Shown here piece by piece: positions 8,134-25,596 of a DNA stretch of 46,063 nt. The notes under the pieces were generated by a model. That model was not told the origin of the DNA and ran no database searches. It saw only the letters and a list, made by a program, of their open reading frames with translations. This stretch comes from a virus. How positions within the stretch are numbered: position 1 is the first letter of the stretch; every line of letters begins with the position of its first letter. The position numbers were made by a program, and so were the translations under genes. The stretch spans positions 1 through 46,063 of the IMG/VR virus record IMGVR_UViG_3300049893_000711; one strand, given 5' to 3'.

Positions 8134-8487
8134 CTAACGGTAGGCATCCAAACTCCACTTGATTTGCTTATCGTTATGGCGGGGCAATCTCACGGCTTCG
8201 ATACACTCACGGATATGCTTACGTGTATCGGGATCGTGTCTGTCAAACCACTCAAAGGCACAGCGAGCTACAAACTCACGTGCATCATGGGGCGCGAAGT
8301 CATACAGAGCTTCTATCTGCGCCACTGTGGGGTCTTCCGGTTCAAGACCGTCACCCTTGCACCACCCACACGTGTGCTTACCATCCTCGTTCTCGTCGTC
8401 GTAACCGTAGCCACCACACACGCGACAAGGCCATTCGCCTGTGATCTGTGGTTCATTTCCCGTAACACCGGGGGGATAGTTACTCAT
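8134..8487 (-). CDS. DnaJ-type zinc-finger protein
   Basis: 117 residues, ATG 8487, with an 8-nt overlap with the upstream gene. Residues about 21-46 carry two C-x2-C-x-G units (CRVCGGYGYD and CGWCKGDGLE), the signature of a DnaJ/RNA-polymerase-type zinc finger that would hold one zinc ion. The remainder is helical and acidic (VAQIEALYDFAPHDAREFV, TRKHIRECIEAVRLP). Probably a protein- or nucleic-acid-binding adaptor. There is no J-domain. Confidence 0.65.
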   Translation of the reverse strand: MSNYPPGVTGNEPQITGEWPCRVCGGYGYDDENEDGKHTCGWCKGDGLEPEDPTVAQIEALYDFAPHDAREFVARCAFEWFDRHDPDTRKHIRECIEAVRLPRHNDKQIKWSLDAYR

Positions 8488-8707
8488 TCTCTATAACCTC
8501 CACGTGTGTGATCGTAAGATCACCACTATCAGCGATACCCTCAGCCCATCTGTCAGCGATCTGACGTGCGTGAGCGAGACTTACGGCATGAATCGTTTGA
8601 GTTACCTCAAAGAACATACCGATATTGAACGGGCGGGTTGGGTTACAGATAGTACAGATATCACTTCCACCGCATTCACACGGGTTACACTTGAATGCTT
8701 CAGTCAT
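8480..8707 (-). CDS. Cys-rich small protein
   Basis: 75 residues from ATG 8707, preceded by ACTAACCAAGGGAG. The N-terminus holds five cysteines within about 15 residues (CNPCECGG, ICTICNP), likely a compact zinc-binding knuckle. The rest looks like a small alpha/beta domain with FEVTQTIHAVSLAHARQIAD and LTITHVEVIENE, reminiscent of the small phage proteins whose strand-helix-strand modules begin FEV. Function unknown. Confidence 0.6.
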   Translation of the reverse strand: MTEAFKCNPCECGGSDICTICNPTRPFNIGMFFEVTQTIHAVSLAHARQIADRWAEGIADSGDLTITHVEVIENE

Positions 8708-8722
8708 TGCGTACTCCCTTGG

Positions 8723-8998
8723 TTAGTTCATATGGATACCGAGACGCTTTGCAACCTGCCTCAAGATATCCTCGCCATGCTCAGTCTTCGCAATGATGGA
8801 CACGCTAGGATCGGTGCGATGTAGCACACGTGCATCCTTGTATTCCTCCACCGTTCCGCCAGCCCACCACTCCTTGATTTCACAGTCCTTGAAGAATCCT
8901 GGCTCAATCGTATTAGCCTCCCAAATAACCTTGAGCCATTCAGGAGGATTGTCCCTGTATTCGATTGGCCCTACAGCACAGCGAATGCTTACCATCAT
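8723..8998 (-). CDS. Protein of unknown function
   Basis: 91 residues from ATG 8998 (a second ATG follows immediately), preceded by the leader AACTAACCAAGGGAG. The sequence is mixed alpha/beta, with aromatic segments (PPEWLKVIWEAN, IKEWWAGG) and a C-terminal helix (HGEDILRQVAKRLGI). No motif is recognised. It is separated from the DUF932 gene by two strong hairpins, suggesting independent control. Confidence 0.6.
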   Translation of the reverse strand: MMVSIRCAVGPIEYRDNPPEWLKVIWEANTIEPGFFKDCEIKEWWAGGTVEEYKDARVLHRTDPSVSIIAKTEHGEDILRQVAKRLGIHMN

Positions 8999-9017
8999 AT
9001 CTCCCTTGGTTAGTTGG

Positions 9018-9092
9018 GGATGGTGGCAAGCCCCGAAGCGATTTGCCTACCACCATCCCGTGTGACCGTAGCGAGGGGGTGCTATGCGGTCA
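9018..9092. other. Tandem hairpins between DUF932 gene and next gene
   Basis: GGGATGGTGG (9018-9027) pairs with CCACCATCCC (9050-9059), a 10-bp stem. GTGACCG (9061-9067) pairs with CGGTCAC (9086-9092) and overlaps the DUF932 stop codon. Both would form in the leftward mRNA just before a leader/RBS. No U-run is present, so processing or attenuation is as likely as termination. Confidence 0.5.
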
Positions 9093-10089
9093 CATCTGCG
9101 AGAACGTGGAGAACCTGCATGTCCTCGTTCCCAGTCTTGCCATTGATCAGGTTCTCCATGTTGCGAACCTGGCGGGGCACACCCTTGCGGACAGTACCGA
9201 AGTGCTGCCTCCACGTGTTGTATGCCGCCGAGACTCCGAACGCAGTACCCTTCCAGGGAGCAACACGCGGGTCGTTATTGTACAGTTGCACAATCTCGCC
9301 ACGCTTGTTCTCACCCTTCGTAATGGCGACCTTGGAAAACTCGTCATTGATAGGCACCATGATCCGCAGGTGCCGAAGGAACTGCTCGTCCGAAACCTTC
9401 CATGCACACAGATTCGCAACTTCCTCCGAGAACTCTGCGCTCATCTGATGCACGATCTGCAAAGCCTCACGCGCATCGTGGATTCTGTATCCACTATACT
9501 TCGTGTGCTTCACCTTGAACTGCTGTCCCTGCTCACCGAGAGCCATCTCTCTAGTATTATCACAGACCACATCCGTGCGAACACGCTTGAACGTGGTTGC
9601 GATAGTACCGTCGAATGACGTAGTGGCGAGAAGGTTGGGCCGGAACTCCACACCCTCGGGCGTGACGATATTCTCAGGAACCTCGACAGACACCCACGCC
9701 TGTCCACCCTGCCTGAGAAGACCAGCCGACCCGATACCAAGCTCATCATCGAGAATGTCTGCGACGTTCTCAAGCAGCCATTCCTGATACTGATGACCCT
9801 GGTAGCCAGCCTTGAAGACTCCGAGAACGATATGATTATCGTCCCTGACTACAGCCTTGCGACCGGGAATCTCCACGTACTCTCCGCTAGACTTGCGAAG
9901 ATAGATCGGAGAATCCACGACCTCAAAGTTGAACAGGCGACGAAGCACGTCGTCCACCGGAACCGGGCCGACATAATGGTTGGACTCGATCCCCTGCAAC
10001 TCCCGGCGATAGTGCCAAGCGTTGCCACGCTTGTCCGTAAAGCCGATAAGCGTATGGAGATTGAGCCACTCCATCGTCTCCTGGCTCAT
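9082..10089 (-). CDS. DUF932 phage/plasmid-like protein
   Basis: 335 residues from ATG 10089, preceded by AAAGGGAGGT. The sequence matches the DUF932 (TIGR03299) phage/plasmid family in length and pattern: WHYRRELQGIESNHYVGPV at the start, then YQEWLLENVADIL, WVSVEVPENIVTPEGVEFRP, LATTSFDGTIATTF, then VCDNTREMAL and a helical C-terminus ending in a GK-rich segment. The biochemical role of the family is not established; members are common beside phage replication genes. It is preceded by its own promoter region and a structured element, so high expression is likely. Confidence 0.85.
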   Translation of the reverse strand: MSQETMEWLNLHTLIGFTDKRGNAWHYRRELQGIESNHYVGPVPVDDVLRRLFNFEVVDSPIYLRKSSGEYVEIPGRKAVVRDDNHIVLGVFKAGYQGHQYQEWLLENVADILDDELGIGSAGLLRQGGQAWVSVEVPENIVTPEGVEFRPNLLATTSFDGTIATTFKRVRTDVVCDNTREMALGEQGQQFKVKHTKYSGYRIHDAREALQIVHQMSAEFSEEVANLCAWKVSDEQFLRHLRIMVPINDEFSKVAITKGENKRGEIVQLYNNDPRVAPWKGTAFGVSAAYNTWRQHFGTVRKGVPRQVRNMENLINGKTGNEDMQVLHVLADVTA

Positions 10090-10125
10090 GCTACCTCCCT
10101 TTGGTAGTTTGACCGCTGTGATTTC

Positions 10126-10144
10126 ATTATAGCACAGTTGTCAA
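10126..10144 (-). promoter_or_regulatory. Extended -10 promoter before DUF932 gene
   Basis: Minus strand TGC-TATAAT, a perfect -10 with extended TGn, at 10131-10126. A TTGACA lies only 7 nt upstream, too close to act as a normal -35. Compare the 17-nt-spaced promoter at 12314-12342, which shares the flanking bases. Confidence 0.55.
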
Positions 10145-10166
10145 GAGTCGCCTTCCTGAACGACCC

Positions 10167-10247
10167 CACAGAGGGTGCCGGCTCAACGTCGCGGGGATTA
10201 CGCCGTAGCCGCCCGATATCGTATCCGCATGTCCGATACCCTCTGTG
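10167..10247 (-). ncRNA. Candidate structured RNA A, closed by 10-bp stem
   Basis: CACAGAGGGT (10167-10176) pairs perfectly with ACCCTCTGTG (10238-10247). The 61 nt inside can form a GATA/TATC hairpin and a CGGCT/AGCCG stem, so a branched fold is possible. It lies just downstream of a good leftward promoter and upstream of the DUF932 promoter. Its closing stem shares the CAGAGGGT/ACCCTCTG core with element B. Confidence 0.4.
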
Positions 10248-10293
10248 CAGTCGTCAAGAAACTGCACTCTCCCTGCGTGAAGCCACGGGAGCA

Positions 10294-10322
10294 ATCTTAC
10301 CATAGTTTACCAGTGCTGTCAA
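10294..10322 (-). promoter_or_regulatory. Leftward sigma-70-type promoter
   Basis: TTGACA at 10322-10317, a 17-nt spacer, then TAAGAT at 10299-10294. The -35 is perfect and the -10 close to consensus. The predicted transcript start is near 10287, so the first RNA made would be structured element A. Confidence 0.6.
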
Positions 10323-10555
10323 GAGTACCGTTCGTTCAGTGTTTCGATGAACTCCACCCTCGGGCCATCTGGCAGTTCCTCCACGATCCAACCGAGTAGC
10401 TGAGTCACACTGCGAAAGGCTTTGTCCATATCAAGACTGTTCACTGCATGGATATGCAGTTTGCGGTTACTTGTGCTTCCGACAGTCAGACCCACACCAA
10501 CGGGAACACCTACCTCGATATCGACTTCATGTCTTGACTTCGTTCGTGCTGCCAT
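10319..10555 (-). CDS. Small protein of unknown function
   Basis: 78 residues from ATG 10555, with AGGAGA just upstream; a longer frame from 10657 lacks an RBS. The N-terminal strands (HEVDIEVGVPVGVGLTVG, RKLHIHAVN) and a C-terminal helix (MDKAFRSVTQLLGWIVEELP) suggest a compact alpha/beta domain. The 3' end overlaps the promoter of the next transcription unit. No family is recognised. Confidence 0.6.
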   Translation of the reverse strand: MAARTKSRHEVDIEVGVPVGVGLTVGSTSNRKLHIHAVNSLDMDKAFRSVTQLLGWIVEELPDGPRVEFIETLNERYS

Positions 10556-10563
10556 TATCTCTC

Positions 10564-10635
10564 CTAGTCGATCCGATTGAAGGCTACGATGATTCCTATA
10601 ATCACGACGATGGCAACCGCGATTAGTAGCTCCAA
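10564..10635 (-). CDS. 23-residue membrane microprotein
   Basis: TTG start at 10635, with GGGAG 7 nt upstream. The product is almost entirely one hydrophobic helix (LLIAVAIVVIIGIIVAF) flanked by Glu at the start and Arg-Ile-Asp at the end. It fits exactly between two genes, 9 nt after one stop-to-start junction and 8 nt before the next gene. Size makes coding statistics useless; the RBS and perfect transmembrane composition are the evidence. Confidence 0.42.
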   Translation of the reverse strand: MELLIAVAIVVIIGIIVAFNRID

Positions 10636-10637
10636 CT

Positions 10638-10877
10638 TTAGACTCCCACGTGTTCAAGTTCGTCGGTTAGCTCCGTGACTTCCATGAAGCTAGTCACGAA
10701 TGGATGCTTATACACACCCGCTGCCTCACCGAAGTCAAGACCCTCATACAGAAACTTGGCAACCCCTGTATTGTCATTAGTACACGTGACTGTGAACTTA
10801 CCACCCTTCACAGACATACGCATAACGATACCGGGCCACCCAAGTAGGGGTCGCTCTGCGAAGTATCCCTGCATCAT
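10638..10877 (-). CDS. Small protein of unknown function
   Basis: 79 residues; double ATG at 10877/10874 after the leader CCAAAGGGAGG. Strand-rich (GIVMRMSVKGGKFTVTCTN) followed by VAKFLYEGLDFGEAAGVYKH and an acidic helix (MEVTELTDELEHV). No motif is recognised. It is expressed behind the structured element B. Confidence 0.6.
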   Translation of the reverse strand: MMQGYFAERPLLGWPGIVMRMSVKGGKFTVTCTNDNTGVAKFLYEGLDFGEAAGVYKHPFVTSFMEVTELTDELEHVGV

Positions 10878-14599: not shown

Positions 14600-14929
14600 A
14601 TGAGCGATTCCCTCGGACTCAATCCAGAGGAATCCGAGAGGCTAAAGGAATTGAAGGATGCCCTTGAGGGCGAGTTTCTCAAGTCGGAGAAGGAAACACG
14701 ACAGGAAACCGCAACTAAGGATATTGAAGACCTGAAGCCTGATTTCCTTGAAGCCCTCAAGCATGTTGTTAGGCATTCCACTAGTGACAACCTGCGAGCT
14801 AAGGTTGCCATGTGGGGTTACGACAAGTTGCTCGACCAGGGCAAGGCTAACACCGATCCTCTCTATGACCTGATTCATGGCATGGAGAAGGTTCGCACAC
14901 TTGCTCACGATAACCAGAACGAGGACTAG
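14600..14929 (+). CDS. Helical protein, possible small terminase-like role
   Basis: 109 residues from ATG 14600, with GAGG upstream; the longer frame from 14528 lacks an RBS. Entirely helical and charged (NPEESERLKELKDALEGEFL, then DIEDLKPDFLEALKHVVRHS, then LRAKVAMWGYDKLLDQGK). It is the first gene of the late operon, where a small terminase subunit often lies, but the large subunit is 9 kb away and no HTH is clear. The functional call is only a suggestion. Confidence 0.6.
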   Translation: MSDSLGLNPEESERLKELKDALEGEFLKSEKETRQETATKDIEDLKPDFLEALKHVVRHSTSDNLRAKVAMWGYDKLLDQGKANTDPLYDLIHGMEKVRTLAHDNQNED

Positions 14930-15363
14930 TGCCGCTAGTTCTTGATCATACGATTGTTGGTCAGGAACTAACTACGCTCTCGATTCGCAAGGATCGTGAG
15001 TTTGCCGCATGCCGTATCTGTGGTGCCATCTTTCAATCGCGGCTAAATACGGATGCAGTGTCCGATGAGGACTACGCTGCCGATCCTGACCTAAAGCTAG
15101 CCGCGCACCTTGAAACTCTGGAATGGCGCAGATACCACAATACGAAGCACAGCGAGAAAGCTCATAGAACCTTCAGAGCTACAGGTAGGACAATGACACC
15201 GGAGGCGGCTAACAAGCTAGCTCCGTTTGGTCTTGTGCCTATCGAGGACGCATTGACCTCCGAGGAACACGCCTGTGCGCTTTTCGATGCGCCACGCGCC
15301 CCCGTCGATGATGTTCAATCCACTCTCAAACAGTACGTAAGTTTCAGCCCGAAAGGGGTTTAA
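14929..15363 (+). CDS. C2H2-type zinc-finger protein
   Basis: 144 residues; GTG 14929 shares one base with the preceding TAG. Residues about 28-75 contain C-x2-C (ACRICGAIFQSR), then histidines in HLETLEWRRYHNTKHSEKAH, the elements of a zinc finger. The C-terminal part (PEAANKLAPFGLVPIEDALT) looks helical. It is coupled to both neighbours. DNA or protein binding is inferred. Confidence 0.6.
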   Translation: MPLVLDHTIVGQELTTLSIRKDREFAACRICGAIFQSRLNTDAVSDEDYAADPDLKLAAHLETLEWRRYHNTKHSEKAHRTFRATGRTMTPEAANKLAPFGLVPIEDALTSEEHACALFDAPRAPVDDVQSTLKQYVSFSPKGV

Positions 15364-15779
15364 TGCCTTTCTACGAGATCGCATACGAGACTGGCAGAAT
15401 GTCAGTTGCGGAGTATGCAAACGACGACGAGGCGAAGATGGCGCTCAAGGCTCATAATGATCGCGCTGTCTCGGGCCTCGCTGGTGGGCCTATCGGACAG
15501 CCTGCTGAAAGAATCGCTGCGGTGTATGTCTATGCGAATCACCCCGATTCCTTCAACGAGATGCAGGCAATGAGTGCCGATGTTCTGCAGAAAGAGGTAG
15601 CTGCACTTATCAAGTCACTCGCGGATGAGAATGGTGTGGTGGCAATCGATCAGCTTGCAGTTGAGGTACGCGGCCTCTCGCATCCGATGAAGGAGCGAAA
15701 AGAGCCATTCGGCTCCATGTTCAAGCTCAAGGAATCCAAGAGCCTCAAGCTAGCCTTTCTTGCGGGAGAGGATGCGTAA
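15363..15779 (+). CDS. Protein of unknown function
   Basis: 138 residues; ATG 15363 overlaps the stop as TAATG. N-terminal strand-helix (FYEIAYETGRMSVAEYANDD, EAKMALKAHNDRAV), and a central strand AAVYVYANHPDS. The C-terminal helix VLQKEVAALIKSLADE is followed by VVAIDQLAVEVRGL. It ends in a basic tail. It could be a head-associated or regulatory protein; no family is recognised. Confidence 0.6.
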   Translation: MPFYEIAYETGRMSVAEYANDDEAKMALKAHNDRAVSGLAGGPIGQPAERIAAVYVYANHPDSFNEMQAMSADVLQKEVAALIKSLADENGVVAIDQLAVEVRGLSHPMKERKEPFGSMFKLKESKSLKLAFLAGEDA

Positions 15780-16276
15780 TGGCAACTATCGTCTTCCAGA
15801 GAATGAGTCAGCTAGTCACGGACTACATTCTCGGTAACTCGGGTTCCATTACTCCCCCGGCATCGTGGACGATGGGCCTCTCTACTACGATTGTTGGCTC
15901 AGGCTCCAACATGATGCGTAACTCTGTGTGGTCTGTGACCGTCTCGGGATCGAACGTGAACGAGATCGGTTCCACTACGGCAAATGGTTATGCGCGGCAG
16001 ACCATCGCCCGGACAATCGCACAGGGTGGTATCGACTGGGGCACGTCCTCCCTCGATAACACCTTCTCTACGGGTGGGCAGTCCTCGACGGCTGATCAGG
16101 TTACGTTCGGTGCCTTCTCGGGAGCGCCCTCGCCTAACGGTGCAAACTCCTGGGCTATGACAGATGGAGCAACACTCAATGCTGGACAACTCTACTTTGC
16201 TGCTGATACTGCGGCTACAAGGACTTTCGCCAACGGCGATACGGAAAAAGTAACTGCGACCCTAAAGGCAGGTTAA
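15779..16276 (+). CDS. Virion-associated beta-rich protein
   Basis: 165 residues, TAATG overlap at the start. Begins LVTDYILGNSGSITPPASWT and carries TTANGYARQTIA, the NGYAR motif seen in many phage virion proteins of this size, then STADQVTFGAFSG and a beta-rich end (TLNAGQLYFAADTAATRTF). Composition is Ser/Thr/Gly/Asn-rich, typical of surface-exposed virion proteins. Likely a capsid or tail decoration or fibre component. Confidence 0.65.
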   Translation: MATIVFQRMSQLVTDYILGNSGSITPPASWTMGLSTTIVGSGSNMMRNSVWSVTVSGSNVNEIGSTTANGYARQTIARTIAQGGIDWGTSSLDNTFSTGGQSSTADQVTFGAFSGAPSPNGANSWAMTDGATLNAGQLYFAADTAATRTFANGDTEKVTATLKAG

Positions 16277-16277
16277 T

Positions 16278-16934
16278 ATGGCTTCAGTCTCTATCTCCCC
16301 CAGTCCGGCAACTACAGGTGATGCGCTTTCGATCACGGGTTCTGGCTTTCTGCCATCGACGGTCGTAACGGTTGCCCTCCCCGAACTTGGTATCCAGTCG
16401 GAGATTACCTCGGATGCTGCAGGCTTCTTTGGCAGTGACGATATTGCAGATCATGCTGCTACTACTCTGACAGCAAGCGGCGCTATCAGTGCGGATGAGA
16501 CAGTGACACTCGGCGCTGTTACCTATACGTTTAAGGCAACAGTTGGTGCTACTGCTAATGAAGTTGACCTCGGTGCTAGCACTGCGGAGGCGCTTGCCAA
16601 TCTCAAGGCCGCGATTAACCTTGAAGCTGGTGCAGGTACCCTTTACGGGTCTGCTACGGTTGTTCATCCCACTGTGGGGTGTCGAGCGGTGGACGCGACC
16701 CATGCCTATGTTTATGCAAAGACAGGTGGCACAGGCGGTAACTCACTTGCATCGACAAAGGTGGCAACCAACCTTGCCTTCCCCGGTGCGACATTTAACT
16801 CGGGAACGCCGGGAACTGCCGCTACGGGTGTGAGCGCGATTATCATTTCGATTGAGGAAGCTGGAACCTTCGCAGTTACAGCAAGCGATGGCACCAACTC
16901 GGCCACCGGCAGCATTCAGGTCTTCACCAGCTAA
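16278..16934 (+). CDS. Ig-like virion decoration protein
   Basis: 218 residues. The first 60 residues read like an IPT/TIG immunoglobulin-like domain (SVSISPSPATTGDALSITGS, GFLPSTVVTVALP). A second domain from about 68 starts AISADETVTLGAVTYTFKAT and contains AEALANLKAAINLEAGAGTL, a pattern known from phage structural proteins. The last 50 residues finish with another beta strand set (AIIISIEEAGTFAVTASDGT). No enzymatic motif. A carbohydrate-adhesion or capsid-decoration role is inferred. Confidence 0.65.
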   Translation: MASVSISPSPATTGDALSITGSGFLPSTVVTVALPELGIQSEITSDAAGFFGSDDIADHAATTLTASGAISADETVTLGAVTYTFKATVGATANEVDLGASTAEALANLKAAINLEAGAGTLYGSATVVHPTVGCRAVDATHAYVYAKTGGTGGNSLASTKVATNLAFPGATFNSGTPGTAATGVSAIIISIEEAGTFAVTASDGTNSATGSIQVFTS

Positions 16935-16939
16935 ACGCG

Positions 16940-17392
16940 ATGGCCTGTCTAGGTGCAGTAGCATATGATCCAGGCTCGGCAGTAACCAAGACGACTACTG
17001 CCGCAGCCGCAATGACGGCATTCGATACAACGAATGCCAGGATCACCTTTAATGCCCCACAGAGCGGTAGGGTGCTTATTCGCATCCGTTGCGTGATTCA
17101 CGGAGCGACGACGTTTCCACAGATTCTTCTAGGGGTTCTCGATGGTGCCACTGTGAAGGGTCGTGTGGCACCTATCGGTGGCCTACCGGGAACAGCACTC
17201 GCTACTACTCTGATGGCCGTTGAAGCTCTATTCACAGTGGGTGGGCTAACGCCTTCAAGCTCCTATACTTATGACGCAGCATTTGGAGTCGAGACTGGCG
17301 TAGCTTCCACAGGAATCAAATATGGTGGGCCTGACAACGGTTCTGCCAACGATGCTTTCGGCGCACTAGTGTACGAGGTTTGGGATGCATAG
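16940..17392 (+). CDS. Beta-rich virion-associated protein
   Basis: 150 residues, starting MACLGAVAYDPGSAVTKTTT. It is Ala/Thr/Gly-rich with alternating strands (ARITFNAPQSGRVLIRIRCV, LLGVLDGATVKGRVAPIGG), and ends GALVYEVWD. The pattern resembles small jelly-roll virion proteins. Its 3' end overlaps the next gene by 8 nt. Confidence 0.6.
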   Translation: MACLGAVAYDPGSAVTKTTTAAAAMTAFDTTNARITFNAPQSGRVLIRIRCVIHGATTFPQILLGVLDGATVKGRVAPIGGLPGTALATTLMAVEALFTVGGLTPSSSYTYDAAFGVETGVASTGIKYGGPDNGSANDAFGALVYEVWDA

Positions 17393-17732
17393 CGCCCTTA
17401 TGCTTACGAGTGAGCAATCGCTCTTTGCAAATATCGAGGAAGCGCTCGTTCCTCTTAATCTACAAGCAGACGTGGGAGAGGAATTCCCCTGGGTTCCTCT
17501 CCTTATGTCGGTTTCACAGCTTGAGGAACATACTACATATGACTCGGAAACTGTCTATCTCGATCTCATCACTCTAGGTGGAGAATGCTTCTCCACCTAC
17601 TCAGGAACCTTTCTCGGTGAGGGAGAAGCTGATATCCGTTGGCTAACTTCTCTCGATGAGACTCGATGGTTGGGTGACGACGAAACTCGTTGGTCGGTTG
17701 GGGATGTTGTTGTTGAAGGGATACACTGCTAA
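17385..17732 (+). CDS. Protein of unknown function in virion block
   Basis: 115 residues from ATG 17385. Acidic, with a C-terminal repeat of the DETRW type (SLDETRWLGDDETRWSVGD). The N-terminal half has hydrophobic strands (VSQLEEHTTYDSETVYLDLI). Similar DETRW repeats are found in small adaptor-like phage virion proteins. It ends in a TAATG overlap. Confidence 0.6.
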   Translation: MHSALMLTSEQSLFANIEEALVPLNLQADVGEEFPWVPLLMSVSQLEEHTTYDSETVYLDLITLGGECFSTYSGTFLGEGEADIRWLTSLDETRWLGDDETRWSVGDVVVEGIHC

Positions 17733-18031
17733 TGGCTATCGGCTACATCTCCAAAGGTACGAAGGAGAACGTCCGTATCACCTTTGTTGACCGTTCAGGG
17801 CTTGTCACTGATCTTTCGGGTTCAGGACCAACCTTCGACGTAATCGACTCAGCAGAGGTTTTCAAGGTTACGGCTGGCTCTGCGACTGCGAGTGGTCTTA
17901 CGATCACCGTTCTCCTTGACACCACTGTGGGCGGTGTGTGGGCAGAGGGGGATTTCCGCCTCTTTGTCAAGTTCACCGTTGGTGCCGAGGTTATCCGAAA
18001 AGGCCCATACTACTTCACTATTGTCGAATGA
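17732..18031 (+). CDS. Small beta-sandwich virion protein
   Basis: 99 residues, beta-rich (ENVRITFVDRSGLVTDLSGS, GLTITVLLDTTVGGVWAEGD, EVIRKGPYYFTIVE). The C-terminal FRLFVKFTVGAE.IRKGPYYF pattern parallels KLYVKYTTGTESPILGPIFF in the gene at 23682, so the two are probably related. This fold is used by phage baseplate and fibre proteins. ATGA overlap with the next gene. Confidence 0.6.
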   Translation: MAIGYISKGTKENVRITFVDRSGLVTDLSGSGPTFDVIDSAEVFKVTAGSATASGLTITVLLDTTVGGVWAEGDFRLFVKFTVGAEVIRKGPYYFTIVE

Positions 18032-18480
18032 CCAAGAACAGTAAAATAGCAGCGGCTACCGTTAGTAGCCTACTAGTCCTAGCGGGTGGGGCTGCTACGG
18101 CTTATCGAGTAAGTGGAGATTCCACTACTGCAACCACTACTACCTCTCCACTGGCGGCTCCCCTGCTCAATATCGTGTCTGTTGGTGAAACAGAAATCCA
18201 CGTCGATTGGGGGCCGTCACAGCCTGGGCCATTCACGATCAGTAACGTAACTGCTCGCTCTGCAAAGATCAGTTGGCCTCCTGCTATCGATACCCTTCAC
18301 CCTGTGGGCCTTACCTATACAGCTAAGAAGGGTTCCTCAGTTAGTTGGCGGGATATCAGTCGCACCTATGTCACAGTCGGGTTTGCCACCACTGTGCGCT
18401 CTTTTAGATTTTGTGTAAAGGCAAAGAACAGCGCGGGAAAGGAATCACCCTATAAGTGCACAACCTTTACCGGACAATGA
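18028..18480 (+). CDS. Membrane-anchored fibronectin type III protein
   Basis: 150 residues from ATG 18028 (ATGA overlap). The N-terminus MTKNSKIAAATVSSLLVLAG has a basic start and a hydrophobic span, so it is a signal-anchor. A Thr/Ser-rich linker follows. Residues about 70-150 form a FN3 domain (TISNVTARSAKISWPP, then TVGFATTVRSFRFCVKAKNS). It would expose an Ig-like domain outside the cell membrane, or be a misplaced virion part. Surface exclusion or adhesion are speculative roles. Confidence 0.65.
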   Translation: MTKNSKIAAATVSSLLVLAGGAATAYRVSGDSTTATTTTSPLAAPLLNIVSVGETEIHVDWGPSQPGPFTISNVTARSAKISWPPAIDTLHPVGLTYTAKKGSSVSWRDISRTYVTVGFATTVRSFRFCVKAKNSAGKESPYKCTTFTGQ

Positions 18481-18770
18481 TTCCAAACCTCGGACGGGAG
18501 AACGTGGTAGGTATAAGTCCGTCCCGGCGCGAACTAGAGATATTAGAGCTGGTCGCCTTGGGTTTGACGAACGCAGAGATTGGTTCGATCCTCTACGTTG
18601 GCCAGGAAACCGTAAAGTCTCACGTCCGCCACCTATTGTGGAAGTTGGACGCACGGAACAGGACATACTTGGTCACACGGGGGTACGAGGAAGGCTGGCT
18701 TACAATCCAGTCTATAAAAGATACGAGAGGCCGTTTCCTAACCTCAGTGCGAAACAGAGGACTCAGATAA
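18477..18770 (+). CDS. LuxR/GerE-type HTH protein
   Basis: 97 residues from ATG 18477 (ATGA overlap). Residues about 18-75 are a clear LuxR C-terminal DNA-binding domain: ISPSRRELEILELVALGLTN, then AEIGSILYVGQETVKSHVRH, then LLWKLDARNRTYLV. No receiver or ligand-binding domain is present. Being embedded in the structural block, it may regulate late genes or host genes. Its stop overlaps a 22-codon frame. Confidence 0.85.
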   Translation: MIPNLGRENVVGISPSRRELEILELVALGLTNAEIGSILYVGQETVKSHVRHLLWKLDARNRTYLVTRGYEEGWLTIQSIKDTRGRFLTSVRNRGLR

Positions 18771-18838
18771 TGGCTCGGATTGGTACGACCCCTGAAAAGA
18801 GTTATGAAGATTTCCTATTTTTTCTCTACTACGGATGA
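18770..18838 (+). CDS. Possible 22-residue microprotein
   Basis: ATG 18770 overlaps the LuxR gene stop as TAATG. The frame encodes MARIGTTPEKSYEDFLFFLY, then two more residues and a stop. Only position and coupling support it. Confidence 0.35.
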   Translation: MARIGTTPEKSYEDFLFFLYYG

Positions 18839-18847
18839 GGCTGAAGA

Positions 18848-19378
18848 ATGGCTGATGGCGTAAATCTACCACTTACCGGGGCAGGTGATGCAACTAGCAA
18901 GGTTGCTACTGACGATGCTGGCGCCTCAGGCCATATTCAGCTTGTCAAACTTGCTGTTGCTGCGGATGGGTCAGCGGTTCTTATTCCCGCTGATCTTGAC
19001 GGCATCGTTATCCAGCCCAAGCTAGAAGATCCACAAGATGAAATCCTAGTTGCAACCGCACTTGGCGCAGGATCGAATGTCGATTTGAATGCTACAGACA
19101 TTCCCCTGGGCAAGAATGGTAGGCTGCTCGGAGCCGACGTAGGTGGTTCGGTTCCGTTCAGATTCGACCTACAGGTAGTGAATGGTTCAAGAGTCACACG
19201 AACTACTATCTATACAGTACCGGGACAGAGCGAACCCTGGCGTCCTCCCTTTGGACAGAAGTTCATCGAAGTGGCGGGAGGTACAGGAATCCATTTTGGA
19301 GTCTCTGTAACTAATCTCGATGCTAGTCAAACTGCAGATGCCCGTATTACTCTCTACTGGGATGAGGTAACTCCGTAA
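18848..19378 (+). CDS. Virion-associated beta-rich protein
   Basis: 176 residues from ATG 18848. Strand-rich, with a C-terminal domain that includes FRFDLQVVNGSRVTRTTIY, PWRPPFGQKFIEVAGG, and ends VTNLDASQTADARITLYWDE. The final block matches TNLDASEAADVYSVILYED at the end of the repeat protein at 20024, so both share a terminal domain, perhaps the part that docks to the same virion site. Confidence 0.62.
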   Translation: MADGVNLPLTGAGDATSKVATDDAGASGHIQLVKLAVAADGSAVLIPADLDGIVIQPKLEDPQDEILVATALGAGSNVDLNATDIPLGKNGRLLGADVGGSVPFRFDLQVVNGSRVTRTTIYTVPGQSEPWRPPFGQKFIEVAGGTGIHFGVSVTNLDASQTADARITLYWDEVTP

Positions 19379-19635
19379 TGGCGCTAAAGAAGAAGCCTGC
19401 ACCGAAGATCAAGCCGCTCTATACGCTGCATGAGGAAGAACGCCTTGAGTATGTTAGGCGTCAGTCGCTCATGCAGAATAAGTACATGGAGTTTCAGGCT
19501 GCACAGTTGTATCTGAATGCGTTTCAGGATTTTCTGGTCGAGGCCCACCAATTGCCAACTAAGTTCAACCTCGATCTGAAGTCAGGCGATATCACAGAGA
19601 GGGAGGCTGAAGATGCCGAAGATGGTAGTGTATGA
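19378..19635 (+). CDS. Small helical protein
   Basis: 85 residues, TAATG overlap. A basic N-terminus (ALKKKPAPKIKPLY) is followed by helices (EERLEYVRRQSLMQNKYMEF, QLYLNAFQDFLVEAH). It ends acidic. Possibly an assembly adaptor. It overlaps the next gene by 23 nt. Confidence 0.55.
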   Translation: MALKKKPAPKIKPLYTLHEEERLEYVRRQSLMQNKYMEFQAAQLYLNAFQDFLVEAHQLPTKFNLDLKSGDITEREAEDAEDGSV

Positions 19636-19807
19636 ACTTTTCACGGTGACGGCAGCCTCTCCCGAAGCTGCAATCGCAAAGGTAAAGGAGGAATCATCGA
19701 GAAGAAAGTCAGTCGTGGTTGCAGCGGAATCGCTCGACCAACTTGCTCACCCCGTACATCTAGCTGATGCCCAGGCCGCGTTCGGCAAAGTCGAAAACGA
19801 TGGCTGA
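19613..19807 (+). CDS. Small alpha/beta protein
   Basis: 64 residues; ATG 19613 with GGGAGG 6 nt upstream, inside the preceding gene. MVVYELFTVTAASPEAAIAK and KSVVVAAESLDQL give a strand-helix-strand module. Unknown function. ATG of the next gene lies within its 3' end. Confidence 0.55.
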   Translation: MPKMVVYELFTVTAASPEAAIAKVKEESSRRKSVVVAAESLDQLAHPVHLADAQAAFGKVENDG

Positions 19808-20024
19808 TAAAGGGCCAGGGCCACAGGAACTAATCCGCAAGCGTATTACTGCGGAAATCAAGCGTCTTGAGTTTATGATTGAATCTCAGGAGCTTGAAAT
19901 GATGGAGATAGGCGAGAGGATCGAAAGACTGAAGGAAAATATACAGGCATCCAAGGATGACATTGTAAAACAGGAGAGCAACTTGGAAGCACTCGATAAC
20001 CCTGAAGGGGGTGAGGAAGCCTAA
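19800..20024 (+). CDS. Coiled-coil protein
   Basis: 74 residues from ATG 19800 (overlap of 8 nt). Nearly the whole protein is a charged coiled coil (KRITAEIKRLEFMIESQELE, IGERIERLKENIQASKDDIV). It lies next to the repeat fibre-like gene, so an oligomerisation or assembly role is possible. Confidence 0.6.
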   Translation: MADKGPGPQELIRKRITAEIKRLEFMIESQELEMMEIGERIERLKENIQASKDDIVKQESNLEALDNPEGGEEA

Positions 20025-21682
20025 TGGCTGATGTTCGCGTCGTACCGAACTTTGCACTTTCGGATGGTACTACCCCATCGCAGATTGCTGCGGTGGATGC
20101 GTCCGGTCGTGTGTCGGTCAACCTAACTGCATCTTCTGCAACGGTCACAGTTGACTCTGAGCTTTCTACTGCGGCGGCACTTGCCGACAACATGGCTAAC
20201 CCCACTGCTGGTGGTGTTGGTGCATTTAGCATGGTATGGGACAGTGCTACGTGGGATCGACTTCCCGGTAACTCTACGGACGGCGCACTTGTCAATCTTG
20301 GTGCTAATAACGACGTTACCGTTACATCGGGTTCAATCACGGCAGATACGGAGCTTTCCGTTGCCGCCGCTCTAACCGACAACTTCGCCAACCCGACTGC
20401 AGGTGGAGTCGGTGCATTCGGTATGTTGTTCGATGGTACAAACTGGGATCGCGCGCCTGGTACCAGCTTGGGTGGTTCGTATGTCGCTGGTGGTATTGCA
20501 AGCGACTCACCCATTACGGGTTCCGGTGTCAACCCGGTTCTCATCGGTGGACGTGCATCTACTGCGGTTCCTACTGCGGTTTCCACGGATGGCGATGCAG
20601 TTAATGCATGGCTTGACCTCCGTGGCGCACAGAAGATCGTCATGGTGGACGATGCCGGTGACTCGGCAATGGACGGAACTAACAATGCACTTCGTGTCAA
20701 CATTGTTGCGGGTGCTGCTGGTGGTGTGACTCACACGGACGATGCGGCGTTTGCTCCGACCACCGATGATGGTGTTCCTGCATTCTTCTTCGCAGACGAA
20801 GCTGCTACCGATCCGGTCGATGAAGGCGATGCTGGTATCGCCCGGATGGATGTTAACCGTCGTCAGCTTGTTCGTATCGTTGGTGCCACTGATGCTAACC
20901 GTATGGATATCGATGCTTCCGGTCGGCCTACGGTTAACGTCAACGGTACGGTCACTGTCGATACTGAGCTTCCTACCGCTGCTGCAATCTCTGCAGAGAA
21001 TACGGCTGCTCCTACGGCACCTAGTGTCTACGGCTTCGGTCTTGTGTTCGACGGAACCAACTGGGATCGTATGCCGGGTACGTCTGTTGACGGTACGCTG
21101 GTCAACCTTGGTACCAACAATGATGTAACGGTCACGTCCGGCTCGATCACTGCTGATACGGAATTCCCGGCGGCAGCGGCATTGGCCGATGCTGAATCGG
21201 CTGCTACTGCCGTTCCTACGGGTGGCGCACGTCTCATGGGTTACAACGGTACGACATGGGATCGTGTCCGCACGGCTAACACGGGTCGTCTGCAGGTCGA
21301 TGTTATTACGGGTGGCGGTTCTGATACTCCGACTAACCCGATTAACAACTACGATACGACGGCGACTGTCGCGGCTGGCTCTACCGACAACCATGATACG
21401 GTAGACTTCGGTGCGGCAACCAAGAAGGTGTCCCAGATCATCATGGGTGCTTCGGTCCCACTCAAGGGCGAACTGCAGTATGTCGATAACGCCGTGGGCA
21501 CTACGTTTGGGGTATTCTTCACTCCTGCAGGTACCTCGCAGTCCTTCAAGCCTCCGCATCGTAACTTCTGGGCGCACACGTTTACAGCTAATGCGGGCTT
21601 CGATGGTTTCCGTTTGATTCGGACTAACCTCGATGCTTCGGAAGCTGCCGACGTTTACAGCGTGATCCTGTACGAGGACTGA
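20024..21682 (+). CDS. Repeat-containing virion fibre/decoration protein
   Basis: 552 residues. At least four imperfect repeats of about 53-60 residues follow the plan TELxxAAALADNxANPTA, then VGAFxMxFDGTNWDRxPG, then a LVNLGxNNDVTVTSGSI strand set. A block with NPVLIGGRASTAVPTAVS near 165-190 is shared with the next gene. The C-terminal about 110 residues are a different domain (TVDFGAATKKVSQIIMGAS, ending in TNLDASEAAD). The DNA copies differ at many wobble positions while the protein is conserved, so the repeats are old. Probably an elongated virion surface protein. Confidence 0.7.
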   Translation: MADVRVVPNFALSDGTTPSQIAAVDASGRVSVNLTASSATVTVDSELSTAAALADNMANPTAGGVGAFSMVWDSATWDRLPGNSTDGALVNLGANNDVTVTSGSITADTELSVAAALTDNFANPTAGGVGAFGMLFDGTNWDRAPGTSLGGSYVAGGIASDSPITGSGVNPVLIGGRASTAVPTAVSTDGDAVNAWLDLRGAQKIVMVDDAGDSAMDGTNNALRVNIVAGAAGGVTHTDDAAFAPTTDDGVPAFFFADEAATDPVDEGDAGIARMDVNRRQLVRIVGATDANRMDIDASGRPTVNVNGTVTVDTELPTAAAISAENTAAPTAPSVYGFGLVFDGTNWDRMPGTSVDGTLVNLGTNNDVTVTSGSITADTEFPAAAALADAESAATAVPTGGARLMGYNGTTWDRVRTANTGRLQVDVITGGGSDTPTNPINNYDTTATVAAGSTDNHDTVDFGAATKKVSQIIMGASVPLKGELQYVDNAVGTTFGVFFTPAGTSQSFKPPHRNFWAHTFTANAGFDGFRLIRTNLDASEAADVYSVILYED

Positions 21683-21689
21683 TAGATAA

Positions 21690-22241
21690 ATGGCGGATAT
21701 TCGCTCAACAGTAAAAGTTGAGGGCACCCAAGCAACTGATGCACCTGTAAGCGATAATCCGGTTCTGATCGGCGGTAGGGCATCCTCTGCGATCCCTACC
21801 GCCGTATCAGGGGATGCTGATGCAGCCCCTCTGTGGTTGAATCGGAGTGGGGCGCAGGTCATTTTGAATGCGCCCCACGTTGGATTGAATGGTGATCCGT
21901 GGTCGCTAGTTCACGAGACTGCCCAGTATACAACTACACAGACAAGCACCGTTCTTGTTACTGGGGGTGCCTCCGAAAAGATAGTTGTTACCAAAGTTCA
22001 GATTCAGGCTGGTGGTACTACTGGTGGCACCGTACAACTTTACTTTGGTACTGGTGCTTATTCCCGTGGTACAAGCCGAGCTATTTTCGATGGTGAATTT
22101 GCTCCTTCCAATACTCTGAAACCCGGTGTAGTTATGGATGGACCATTTATTGCCGGAACCAATGGCGATGATCTGATGGTCACTGACTCGGCAGCAATCA
22201 ATCCTCTTACTATTACTGTCTGGTACTACGTGGTGACATAA
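21690..22241 (+). CDS. Virion protein related to repeat protein
   Basis: 183 residues. The N-terminal SDNPVLIGGRASSAIPTAVS matches a block of the preceding gene. The second half is a separate beta-rich domain (STVLVTGGASEKIVVTKVQI, GTVQLYFGTGAYSRGTSRAI, ending ITVWYYVVT). No catalytic motif. It probably sits in the same structure as the repeat protein. Confidence 0.62.
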   Translation: MADIRSTVKVEGTQATDAPVSDNPVLIGGRASSAIPTAVSGDADAAPLWLNRSGAQVILNAPHVGLNGDPWSLVHETAQYTTTQTSTVLVTGGASEKIVVTKVQIQAGGTTGGTVQLYFGTGAYSRGTSRAIFDGEFAPSNTLKPGVVMDGPFIAGTNGDDLMVTDSAAINPLTITVWYYVVT

Positions 22242-22639
22242 TGAAGAAATTGTTTCTTAGTCTGATTATCCCCATGATCGTAGCCCTCACAGCCGCTCTG
22301 CTCGCTCTTATCGCAGGGGGCATTTTTGCGCTCCCGGCCAAGAGTGCGCCCCGCCCTGATCCCTCGTGCTCCTGGAACCCCTCCGCACTCGCGAGTCCAG
22401 GAGAATCCGTGGTGACTGCAATAAACCTGCCGACGAACCGCTCAGTCTCGTTCTCGTTCGACCTCTATCCGGGCGGCGGTATCAAGTATCCGAGTGGCAG
22501 CGTCTCCTTCGCTCTTACTGTTGAGCAGACAACCACGCTCCACGTGTGGGCGCGTGGCGGTAGTGGAAGCCTTGGCAATGGAGGCCCGCAACTCGGTGAC
22601 TATCACCTGATCGCCATCTGCACCGTGACGGTGGCCTGA
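22241..22639 (+). CDS. Membrane-anchored Ig-like protein
   Basis: 132 residues, TAATG overlap. Residues about 4-31 are a hydrophobic signal-anchor (LFLSLIIPMIVALTAALLAL). The rest is a small beta sandwich (SVVTAINLPTNRSVSFSFDL, VSFALTVEQTTTLHVWARG) with Cys at both ends (C43 and near the C-terminus). This is the second protein in the block with an N-terminal membrane anchor and a beta-sandwich domain. Confidence 0.6.
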   Translation: MKKLFLSLIIPMIVALTAALLALIAGGIFALPAKSAPRPDPSCSWNPSALASPGESVVTAINLPTNRSVSFSFDLYPGGGIKYPSGSVSFALTVEQTTTLHVWARGGSGSLGNGGPQLGDYHLIAICTVTVA

Positions 22640-23403
22640 TGGCTGCCCCCTCCTACGTCGATGCAGGCACCGGCGCAACCGATGCGGGTGGTGCCTGGTC
22701 GTACACCTGCCAGGCGTCTACTGCGGCAGGCAGGGTGTTCATCGTCCACATTCTTCAGGACGGGACGACCTTCTCGGCTGTTGCTGTTACAGGCGCGACA
22801 AACATCGAGGCACTAGACGGGACGGATAATACTTGGACTGCAATCGCCGACTGGTCGAGCGTGGGCGGACTCGGATTGCATAGGGTCTACATTGGCCGCT
22901 CGCTCTCCACAAGCGCGCCCACCATCTCGGGCACCAACTCAACCTCCGAAGACCTATACATCCGCTCGTACCAGTTCACGGATGTTAGTACTGGAACGAC
23001 AGCCGAGACTGTTTTTGAGAACAGCAGCGCAGGTGTTGTTCTAACCGCTTCCAACACGGTCGATCCTATTTCGGACGTGTCCGTAACCACTCTCGGCCCC
23101 GACCGCCTTGCGCTCAACTTTGTCGCGATCACCGATGATAACGCCATCTCTGCCTTTACCGGGATGACGGGTGGGACTTGGACGGAGGCCGTCTCCGAAT
23201 ATGCGGATGCTGCCGGGACGGACGGCTGTATTCAGTTGCAGCAGGCGGCGATGGCGAGTGCAGGCACCATCAATAACGGCACCACAACCCATGTTGATAC
23301 GGCCGACGGCTGGGGCGTCATCGGGTTCGCGCTCATCGGGACTACTGTCGAAGGATCAACTGAAGATCCTTTCCCTTATATCGGTGGGCAATACTACGGA
23401 TAA
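22639..23403 (+). CDS. Virion-associated beta-rich protein
   Basis: 254 residues, TGATG overlap. Beta-rich throughout: SYTCQASTAAGRVFIVHILQ, FSAVAVTGATNIEALDGTDN, then LYIRSYQFTDVSTGTTAETV and DRLALNFVAITDDNAISAFT. The layout resembles the jelly-roll/lectin-like proteins found in actinophage structural regions. It ends in an acidic, Tyr-rich tail. Receptor binding is possible but not shown. Confidence 0.62.
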   Translation: MAAPSYVDAGTGATDAGGAWSYTCQASTAAGRVFIVHILQDGTTFSAVAVTGATNIEALDGTDNTWTAIADWSSVGGLGLHRVYIGRSLSTSAPTISGTNSTSEDLYIRSYQFTDVSTGTTAETVFENSSAGVVLTASNTVDPISDVSVTTLGPDRLALNFVAITDDNAISAFTGMTGGTWTEAVSEYADAAGTDGCIQLQQAAMASAGTINNGTTTHVDTADGWGVIGFALIGTTVEGSTEDPFPYIGGQYYG

Positions 23404-23694
23404 ATGGCCTACCTACTTCTATGGCATCCACGTGTACGAACTGATGTTGACACTGCAACAGTTTACTTCGATCTGCAGCCGTCAACGGTCGAAGTCTTCG
23501 ATGCGTCGGATGCTGCTACTGTCTACCTCGATCTGCAGCCTGGATACATCTATCTGCAGGTTGACTTCCTACTTGAGATCACGGGTGTCACGAAGCGTTG
23601 GACAGTCGGTAAGGTGCAGATGCGCTGGCAGACTTTTGAAGCAATCACCCGTTGGGCAATTCTGAAAACTAGGAGGATGATGTGGAGGTTCTAA
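23404..23694 (+). CDS. Small repeat-containing virion-block protein
   Basis: 96 residues; ATG directly after the preceding stop. Contains two tandem units, ATVYFDLQPS and ATVYLDLQPG, followed by a diverged YIYLQV, encoded by similar DNA. The C-terminus is basic and aromatic (VQMRWQTFEAITRWAILKTR). Function unknown. Confidence 0.55.
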   Translation: MAYLLLWHPRVRTDVDTATVYFDLQPSTVEVFDASDAATVYLDLQPGYIYLQVDFLLEITGVTKRWTVGKVQMRWQTFEAITRWAILKTRRMMWRF

Positions 23695-23993
23695 AGAAAG
23701 GCAGCGTAGAGTCTCTATTGATTCCTCTTAGGGATCGGTTGAACAACATTCTCTCACTCAACTCTGTCAGCAACCTCAAGTTCGATACCAAGAAGAAGTC
23801 GGACGGCACTGCCGTGCAAACGGACAAACTGATCGCGGTGGACAACGACTATCCGATGACCGCTATTTGCGAGATTGATACCACTCTCGCAGGCTATACT
23901 GGTGGAGCAGAATACAAGCTGTATGTAAAGTACACGACTGGTACCGAGTCGCCCATTCTTGGCCCTATCTTCTTTAGAGTGGAGGATGATTGA
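23682..23993 (+). CDS. Small beta-sandwich virion protein
   Basis: 103 residues from GTG 23682, with AGGAGG 5 nt upstream. Strands include SVESLLIPLRDRLNNILSLN, KLIAVDNDYPMTAICEIDT, and EYKLYVKYTTGTESPILGPI. It appears to be a relative of the gene at 17732. It is the last member of the accessory virion block before the packaging genes. Confidence 0.6.
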   Translation: MEVLKKGSVESLLIPLRDRLNNILSLNSVSNLKFDTKKKSDGTAVQTDKLIAVDNDYPMTAICEIDTTLAGYTGGAEYKLYVKYTTGTESPILGPIFFRVEDD

Positions 23994-23995
23994 TA

Positions 23996-24199
23996 ATGCG
24001 GGTTGCTATCGGTACACAAGAAGAAGTTGTACAAGTCCGTGAATGGCGCGTCCAGTGGCTACGTGCTGGTGGTTACACAAAGAAGAATGCTGAACTGATT
24101 GCCAAGAGTCAGGTTGACTGGCGCTATGCAAATAGTCTCCTAGAGTCCTGCAAAGCCAAAGGCTATAGCGAAGACTTCGTGATCAAGTTGCTCCTATGA
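23996..24199 (+). CDS. Small helical protein before terminase
   Basis: 67 residues from ATG 23996; a TTG at 23990 with GGAGG nearby would add two residues. Helical (VREWRVQWLRAGGYTKKNAE, then VDWRYANSLLESCKAKGY). Overlaps the terminase gene as ATGA. The position suggests a packaging accessory or a very short small-terminase-like protein. Unproven. Confidence 0.58.
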   Translation: MRVAIGTQEEVVQVREWRVQWLRAGGYTKKNAELIAKSQVDWRYANSLLESCKAKGYSEDFVIKLLL

Positions 24200-25596
24200 T
24201 CGATCCAGAACGCAAGGCGTATATCTTCGACAAGTTGGAGTACACGGCGCATTCTGCGAAGCAGAAGGCCATCCATGAATCGGACGCCCGATTCAAGGTT
24301 CTCTCCTGTGGCCGTCGTTACGGCAAGACCACCTTTGGCGGTAATGAATTAACTGTGGCTCTCATGGACTACAGCGATCCCGGCTACTACTGGATCGTTG
24401 GTCCGAAGTACACACTAGGCGAAAAAGAGTTTCGTATCGTCTATGAGAACATTGTCAAGAAACTACGCCTTGGCACAAAGATCAAGAAATCATACAACGT
24501 TCAGCAGGGCAACATGCATATCGAGATGCCGTGGGGATCGGTGCTAGAAGTCAAGTCAGCCGAACGTCAGGACACCCTACTAGGAGAAGCTCTGAGCGGC
24601 GTCGTAATGGCCGAGGCTGCACGGCATACCTCCGATACCTGGGAGCAGTACATTCGCCCTGCGCTGTCTGACAAGCGCGGATGGGCCATCTTCGCGTCCA
24701 CCCCTCGCGGATACAATTGGTATCAGGGACTCTGGATGTTGGGTCAATATCGTGACAAGTTCCCCCAGTATGAATCATGGCGCTTGCCCTCATGGGAGAA
24801 CCCCATTGTTTATCCCGATGGTCGGGATGATCCTGAGATCAAGGAGATTGAAGCTCGCGTCTCTCCACAGTTCTTTGCACAGGAGATTGGCGCTGAGTTC
24901 ACTGCGTTTGCTGGTAAGGTCTACGATGAGTTCGATATGGCGATTCACATTAAGCATGTCGAATATAATCCTCTCTGGACTAACGTATGGGCACTCGACT
25001 ATGGGTGGGCTAACCCCTTCTGCTGCTATGACGTAATGATCGACCCCGAAGATAACTTCTATGTGTGGCGTGAGTATCAAGTTTCGGAGAAGACCACATT
25101 TGAGCATGCGAACCTTCTTCTCAATCGATCTGACAATCCTGAGTATTATCATGTCGATTGGGGAGCCGGTGATCCACGTGGCCCCGATCAAGCCAATACA
25201 GTTTCGATCCTCACAGGTGTCCAAATCTACAGTCAGGATATCGGTGAAGGCAACGCCCATGAATCATGGACTCTCGGTGTCGAGCATGTAAAGCGTCTGC
25301 TGAAGGTTCGCCCTGATGGTCGCCCAAAACTGATTATCGATCCCTCCTGTGAGCATCTAATCAGGCAGATGGAGCAGCTTCGCCGCGATGATCCCAAAGA
25401 AGGTAAGAATGCTCCTGAAGGTCAACATAAGCATGATGACCACGGGCCGGATGCCATTCGTTATTTGATTGGTCAGTATTTTGAATCCGGTGCCGGATCG
25501 TCCCTGGGCGATATCTACGGTACGGGTGCCAAACAGTCGGAGGCAGCTACGTTCTTTCAGAACAATTCCCCTCTAGCTAGGTATGGTCGCTTTTGA
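24196..25596 (+). CDS. terL: Terminase large subunit
   Basis: 466 residues, the packaging motor. The ATPase domain has Walker A CGRRYGKTT (residues 38-46), Walker B GVVMAEAA with Glu140, and the coupling motif FASTP (167-170). The nuclease domain from about 265 begins VWALDYGWANPFCCYDVMID and has further acidic clusters (VDWGAGDPRG, then HDDHGPDAIRYL), as in RNase H-like terminase nucleases. Length is normal. It should cut concatemers and pump DNA through the portal. ATGA overlap with the upstream gene and TTGA overlap with the portal gene. Confidence 0.92.
   Translation: MIDPERKAYIFDKLEYTAHSAKQKAIHESDARFKVLSCGRRYGKTTFGGNELTVALMDYSDPGYYWIVGPKYTLGEKEFRIVYENIVKKLRLGTKIKKSYNVQQGNMHIEMPWGSVLEVKSAERQDTLLGEALSGVVMAEAARHTSDTWEQYIRPALSDKRGWAIFASTPRGYNWYQGLWMLGQYRDKFPQYESWRLPSWENPIVYPDGRDDPEIKEIEARVSPQFFAQEIGAEFTAFAGKVYDEFDMAIHIKHVEYNPLWTNVWALDYGWANPFCCYDVMIDPEDNFYVWREYQVSEKTTFEHANLLLNRSDNPEYYHVDWGAGDPRGPDQANTVSILTGVQIYSQDIGEGNAHESWTLGVEHVKRLLKVRPDGRPKLIIDPSCEHLIRQMEQLRRDDPKEGKNAPEGQHKHDDHGPDAIRYLIGQYFESGAGSSLGDIYGTGAKQSEAATFFQNNSPLARYGRF

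Follow-up and report, generated by a model that had tools for sequence, protein, structure and literature searches.

Putative adsorption appendages encoded in an exchangeable gene block between a TerS-like gene and TerL of an uncultured siphophage

In the Alishewanella siphophage LSH1, gp34-gp36 form an extra virion module that was found by mass spectrometry (PMC13243795). The module consists of a beta-helix payload whose C-terminal part is poorly modelled, a protein with an HHpred match to the GP4 fibril chain 8JOU_g, and a protein with an immunoglobulin (Ig) fold, and the three always occur together (PMC13243795). In Arthrobacter phages of cluster AQ, tail-type genes lie ahead of the gene for the large terminase subunit, TerL (PMC5513430), while FibU of 80alpha provides an example of Ig-type fibre attachment and is dispensable for infectivity (PMC7048315). 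Here, we describe a block of accessory genes at positions 14929-23993 of IMG/VR record IMGVR_UViG_3300049893_000711, a siphophage contig of 46,063 bases that was analysed in full and is called the window below. The block lies between a gene resembling that of the small terminase subunit (TerS) and TerL, and its genes, named here by their start positions, probably encode exchangeable accessory virion appendages for adsorption. It holds two modules, namely pairs of a payload or stalk gene with an Ig-like sandwich gene (module A) and a cassette running from 18848 to 22241 (cassette B), together with a highly conserved gene, g15779.

In its published description, the LSH1 module is an optional cluster outside the canonical gene set, and the block may be of a similar kind: its payload and Ig genes are coupled as well, with a fibril-like match of g15779 that stays sub-threshold. 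In contrast, the three LSH1 genes are present in one copy and end the rightward unit after lysis, whereas the block occupies 9 kb between the TerS-like gene and TerL and often has cassette B in addition to two pairs. Genes annotated as tail or minor-tail are found directly upstream of the terminase in Curtobacterium phage Shrew (gp43-44) and Arthrobacter phage Wollypog (gp89), the TerL proteins of which are about 36% identical to that of the window. In the window and its relatives the block likewise immediately precedes TerL and shares its strand; the actinophages, however, have only one or two large proteins there. A tblastn search of 50,697 phage records returned no homologue of 17732, of 18848 or of the repeat protein of relative G002, and a single partial match (E = 5) for 15779, and so gave no sign of homology to annotated actinophage minor tail proteins. 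The position ahead of TerL and the general idea are thus already known; novelty appears to lie in the protein families, in the scale and in the strictness of the pairing.

The left part of the window is filled by minus-strand genes, and the plus-strand late operon begins near 14,600. From TerL onward its order is canonical: TerL, portal, protease, scaffold, major capsid, connectors, a phrog_290 tail protein (taken here as the tail-tube protein), tape measure, tail-tip genes, endolysin and holin. The block comprises 9.07 kb with 19 plus-strand open reading frames (ORFs) that are tightly coupled, with start and stop codons overlapping or only a few bases between genes; the sole larger gap is 77 nt ahead of 18848. 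An earlier note on this DNA had given the correct boundaries and had recognized the coupling, although it counted some 15 genes. It had also placed the genes before TerL and portal instead of after the tail genes; the position ahead of TerL holds, with the refinement that the block is bounded on its left by the TerS-like gene and that the phage has separate tail-tip genes of its own after the tape measure (37756-40803). The description of the products as mostly Ig-like, beta-rich or repeat-containing applies to about 12 of the 19, as read from their sequences (17732 alone was modelled). It does not apply to the helix-turn-helix (HTH) protein 18456, the Cys-X2-Cys protein 14929, 15363, the helical and coiled-coil proteins 19378 and 19800 or the small protein 19613. 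Independent contigs supplied at least one homologue for every block gene other than 16940 and 22241. When the block proteins were scanned against PHROG and Pfam, hardly anything rose above noise except fn3 and GerE. Sigma-70 promoters and terminators were predicted less often in the region than in shuffled sequence, which makes these predictions uninformative.

The block was followed across the long relatives G001-G005 and numerous shorter contigs (L numbers). Dozens of contigs from related uncultured viruses carry it with contents exchanged, and it is kept ahead of TerL in every relative that has TerL and sufficient flanking sequence. Against G001-G005, the core from TerL to 33860, reaching to the tail, has 11-12 of 12 genes in common, whereas only 5-10 of the 19 block genes are common. 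The window combines two sets of genes that are mostly found apart elsewhere: set A (14929, 15363, 15779 and the pair 17385/17732), common to G002, G003 and G005, and set B (16278 and 18848-22241), common to G001 and G004. Contig L094 combines 15779 with 16278. High turnover of this kind, the intermixing of a regulator and exported proteins, and the ability of the two module types to occur alone would all suit a loose cargo zone, in which unrelated late accessory genes share one tolerant site and no joint function. We regard such a zone as very unlikely, given the fixed coupling of stalk and sandwich genes, the cassette B order that is fixed across unrelated phages and the strong purifying selection on g15779. 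As a separate observation, G003 (L045, L043) starts in the tape-measure region and ends just past the tail-tube gene, and may be a circularly permuted, near-complete genome. The genes of the block and its edges are as follows.

14600..14929, plus strand: TerS-like, first gene of the late operon and left block edge; ORF start possibly at 14528; linked to relatives by profile.
14929..15363, plus strand: Cys-X2-Cys protein, conserved partner of g15363/g15779; homologues in the same slot in most set A relatives.
15363..15779, plus strand: 138-aa protein directly upstream of g15779; same slot in all set A relatives, 31-63% identity.
15779..16276, plus strand: g15779, candidate structural hub or fibril, from its conservation and a sub-threshold resemblance to podophage GP4 fibre I.
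16278..16934, plus strand: TIG-like beta protein of set B phages; 41-45% identity in G001, G004 and L094; weak TIG match, E 0.026.
16940..17392, plus strand: 150-aa protein, probably beta-rich; possible pair 1 payload by position only; no match among related loci.
17385..17732, plus strand: pair 1 payload/stalk in short form, RW-rich at the C-terminus; corresponds to the C-terminus of longer proteins (300-1089 aa) that relatives have at this position.
17732..18031, plus strand: pair 1 Ig-like sandwich; seven-strand sandwich in the AlphaFold model, pLDDT 79; 57-member family.
18028..18480, plus strand: FN3 protein (Pfam fn3, E 1e-5) with hydrophobic signal-like N-terminus; probably exported and not a virion part.
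18456..18770, plus strand: LuxR/GerE-type HTH protein (Pfam GerE, E 2.7e-14); probable regulator, not a virion part.
18848..19378, plus strand: cassette B gene 1 with TNLDAS-type C-terminal domain; alignment of 15 sequences; gene order kept in unrelated phages.
19378..19635, plus strand: cassette B gene 2, small helical protein; homologue or equal-size gene in the slot.
19613..19807, plus strand: small protein encoded between genes 2 and 3 of cassette B; 62-66% identity in G001/G004, 43% in L072.
19800..20024, plus strand: cassette B gene 3, coiled coil; 51-82% identity, including L072 and L074.
20024..21682, plus strand: cassette B gene 4, 552-aa repeat fibre-like protein with internal repeats and a TNLDAS-type end domain; homologues in at least 10 unrelated contigs.
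21690..22241, plus strand: cassette B gene 5 with NPVLIGGRAS N-terminus, related to 20024; same slot in L071, L072, L143, L144 and L148.
22241..22639, plus strand: protein whose N-terminus has a strongly hydrophobic segment (hydropathy 2.82 at residue 8); atypical codon usage; no homologue.
22639..23403, plus strand: putative payload with C-terminal EDPFPYIGGxYY motif, common to payloads of G001, G004 and L072.
23404..23694, plus strand: pair 2 stalk remnant, two 20-aa repeats and RW-rich C-terminus shared with 400-1041-aa repeat proteins.
23682..23993, plus strand: pair 2 Ig-like sandwich, paralogue of 17732; ahead of TerL in nearly all relatives.
23996-24199: small ORF between block and TerL.
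24196..25596, plus strand: TerL, right block edge; PHROG terminase large subunit, E 2.7e-36.

For the left edge, a family profile of 14600-14929 was compared with the first late genes of the relatives (hhalign probability 96.6%, E 6e-10), which themselves match the PHROG terminase small subunit phrog_2538 with E down to 1.4e-5. The window protein by itself had no match to the PHROG terminase small subunit. Because phrog_2538 is of low specificity, being matched in 13 of 14 control genomes as well, the TerS-like label is of moderate strength only. Read in this way, the gene makes the block an interruption of the terminase gene pair.

Three shared domains had been claimed within the block (VTNLDAS..AD ends, NPVLIGGRAS and beta sandwiches), and all three proved genuine. 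BLAST linked 17732 to 23682 (E 9e-7), the C-terminus of 18848 to that of 20024 (TNLDAS..AD; E 5e-5), and 20024 to 21690 over the NPVLIGGRAS region, which is internal in the former and N-terminal in the latter (E 4e-10); 100 rounds of shuffling gave zero matches at E ≤ 1e-3. Repeats were present as three copies of 71 nt in 20024 and as two units exactly 60 nt apart in 23404, and a DNA-level tandem-repeat finder reported none in the window. A single common domain behind all of the shared ends was rejected, since profile comparison found the TNLDAS family unrelated to the 21690 C-terminus or the sandwich. The shared domains therefore belong to unlinked profile families, and the one interlocking system proposed in the earlier note gives way to two separable modules.

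In module A, the sandwich family comprises 57 distinct aligned members of about 100 aa, frequently two per genome. The sandwich gene starts no more than 30 nt from the upstream gene in 52 of the 57, and in 38 of these cases the last 80 residues of the upstream protein include at least three Trp, compared with 19% of all genes. The upstream partner is commonly 300-1,377 residues long, its C-terminus usually bears spaced RW motifs, and in the five upstream proteins tested the repeat period was exactly 20 aa, far above shuffles. The stalk of L137 (4015-6408) has a 14-residue repeat instead, yet matches the usual stalk C-terminus. The window stalks are short forms, of which 23404 retains two units at the 60-nt spacing, and short forms also occur in G001, L001, L005, L007, L010 and L061. 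Lectin-type Laminin_G_3 domains were found in payload genes of relatives (E 3e-14 and 3e-17), and the 22639 payload lies directly ahead of the stalk/sandwich pair in both the window and G001. An EDxFPYxGGxYY motif, possibly a docking tag, was observed near the C-terminus of differing payloads (window 22639-23403, L056 8025-9800, L052 7605-8819 and L072 6072-6785). In the mechanism that we propose, an appendage set was inserted at the start of the late operon. A module A payload, which may be lectin-like, beta-helix-like or plain repeats, would end in a stalk of 20-residue repeats and an RW-rich C-terminal tail, and the sandwich of about 100 aa encoded by the next gene would dock the stalk to the virion, probably to the tail. 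In the window, where both stalk genes are short, the payloads are apparently carried by the separate genes 16940 and 22639.

The 17732 model was searched with Foldseek and VIA-align, and its matches include the 80alpha baseplate chains 6v8i_AN and AM. The alignment to 6v8i_AN, inferred to be FibU from the modelled length in PMC7048315, covers 95 residues with Z 8.2, rmsd (root-mean-square deviation) 2.7 and 19% identity, values that do not discriminate it from other Ig domains. Like the N-terminal domain of BppU and FibU, the model is an Ig-like sandwich of about 100 residues; unlike in those proteins, where Ig domain and fibre are one polypeptide, the two are encoded here by separate adjacent genes. 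No BppU model was among the Pfam matches of the 57 sandwich proteins at E ≤ 0.5. Named BFVD matches include predicted Microbacterium phage tail-fibre and minor-tail proteins. Furthermore, the distant relative L065 has one sandwich gene after its tail-tip genes and another ahead of TerL, which speaks against a head-surface location for all of the products.

Cassette B has a fixed order, consisting of an 18848-like gene, a small helical gene, a coiled-coil gene and a 20024-like gene, often followed by a 21690-like gene. This order recurs in L071, L072, L073, L074, L076, L143, L144, L147, L148 and L149, where in some cases the small genes were recognized from their size and slot and not from sequence similarity; the 19613-type small protein was found in the nearer relatives and L072. 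The cassette follows the capsid gene in L071 and L073, the portal gene in L149, portal and tail spike in L074, and TerL in L076, and it precedes TerL in L072; in these six contigs, the nameable neighbours are capsid, portal, terminase or tail spike genes. A location next to the capsid gene thus applies to the homologues in L071 and L073 and not to the window. One partial relative of 20024 lies after the portal gene of a podovirus. A search of the ten cassette records with the capsid family phrog_1005 gave no match, controls included, and was therefore uninformative. As the cassette travels with head and packaging genes, its product is probably a virion part that is more likely head-associated. 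Module B would then be a second appendage, built from 20024 as repeat fibre, two proteins that end in the same TNLDAS-type domain and two small helical or coiled-coil helpers. The adjacency to capsid genes in L071 and L073, and to portal or TerL elsewhere, also bears on the proposal that all of the beta-rich products merely coat the capsid, with g15779 as a high-copy decoration protein; the conservation of g15779 indeed equals or exceeds that of the major capsid and tail-tube proteins, which could be in keeping with a structural protein present in many copies. We nevertheless consider head decoration alone unlikely, in view of the tail-end sandwich gene of L065, the tail-fibre and minor-tail names among the BFVD matches, and the swappable lectin payloads, which suit adsorption better than capsid stabilization.

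The g15779 protein is 70-91% identical to its homologues in relatives whose TerL is 43-73% identical, and it is the most conserved of all late proteins in G002, G003 and G005. Its four-fold degenerate sites agree at only 0.19-0.41, a saturation like that of TerL and portal; recent horizontal transfer is thereby ruled out as the cause of its conservation, and g15779 is under strong purifying selection. It matches Pfam PF23140 (Gp80), the podophage GP4 fibre I protein gp80, over residues 65-160 only (E 0.012, 16.4 bits, against a curated cut-off of 27 bits), and weak matches to PF23140 were seen in 3 of 30 family members (best E 9e-4). Membership in Gp80 was rejected, as none of the 20 records tested exceeded 27 bits. 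The sub-threshold match, together with a failed structural model, makes g15779 a candidate, and not an established, common structural hub or fibril.

The earlier note had treated all of the products as virion parts, which does not fit the LuxR-type HTH gene 18456 or 18028 and 22241, both with hydrophobic, export-like N-termini; 22241 was also omitted by the codon model and has no match in relatives. As judged from sequence, 18456 is better read as a regulator and 18028 and 22241 as exported proteins. LuxR/GerE-type HTH genes recur in the late block of other contigs (G004 9265-9657, L057 3976-4239, L060 5380-5694, L094 10036-10305 and L095 13379-13702), and in some of these the gene comes immediately or shortly behind a sandwich gene. 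FN3 proteins with a hydrophobic signal-like N-terminus are likewise conserved (window 18028-18480, G002 9500-9943 and G004 8828-9265), which suggests export in late infection. Signal-like starts in 18028, 22241, G004_8828 and G005_12195 would fit late proteins that are exported to the surface of the infected cell for superinfection exclusion or altered adhesion. Such a role for the block appears improbable to us: the conserved families g15779, sandwich, 18848 and 20024 have no such N-terminus, and homologues are located in head or tail gene neighbourhoods.

With regard to the host, g15779 was not found in the genome contigs searched, and one portal relative (L137) sits on a Pyrinomonadaceae contig from a metagenome-assembled genome, which is too little for host assignment. 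The L137 portal ORF (8348-10735) has an insertion of about 300 residues that resembles an intein, as judged by eye.

Collectively, adhesion or decoration is the best reading of the block. Of the surface-decoration or adhesion system first envisaged, the general idea is supported by Laminin_G_3 payloads, the tail-fibre-like Ig fold and the placement of cassette B beside capsid, portal or terminase genes; a single interlocking system is not, nor is a virion role or a head-surface location for every product. The analysis establishes gene order, family relations, conservation, one Ig-fold model, the repeat period and lectin domains in relatives, and from these we infer virion incorporation, docking, receptor binding and head-versus-tail placement. 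Several points weigh against appendages. No block protein matches a characterized virion family above curated cut-off, and profile searches of the PDB with the sandwich, TNLDAS and g15779 families, as well as a single-sequence search with 20024, returned nothing meaningful. Antibody domains tie with the 80alpha chains in the fold comparison, so that the fold alone is uninformative on function, and the AlphaFold model of g15779 (pLDDT 48) was unusable for fold comparison. G001 and G004 are without g15779 and pair 1, which are hence not essential across the group, and the HTH protein, the FN3 protein with its hydrophobic N-terminus and 22241 are unlike virion parts. More tentatively, and with considerable doubt, g15779 may be a near-invariant virion hub that takes interchangeable stalk-sandwich adhesin pairs, a plug-in platform whose most conserved component lies within the block that varies most, accompanied by an independently mobile, head-associated fibre cassette.

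The two protein systems recur in dozens of uncultured phage contigs and probably set what these viruses bind. The coupling of stalk and sandwich and the hub candidate offer testable rules by which adhesins could be recognized in phages that have not been isolated, and cassette B provides a portable marker to be sought in the virions of unrelated phages.

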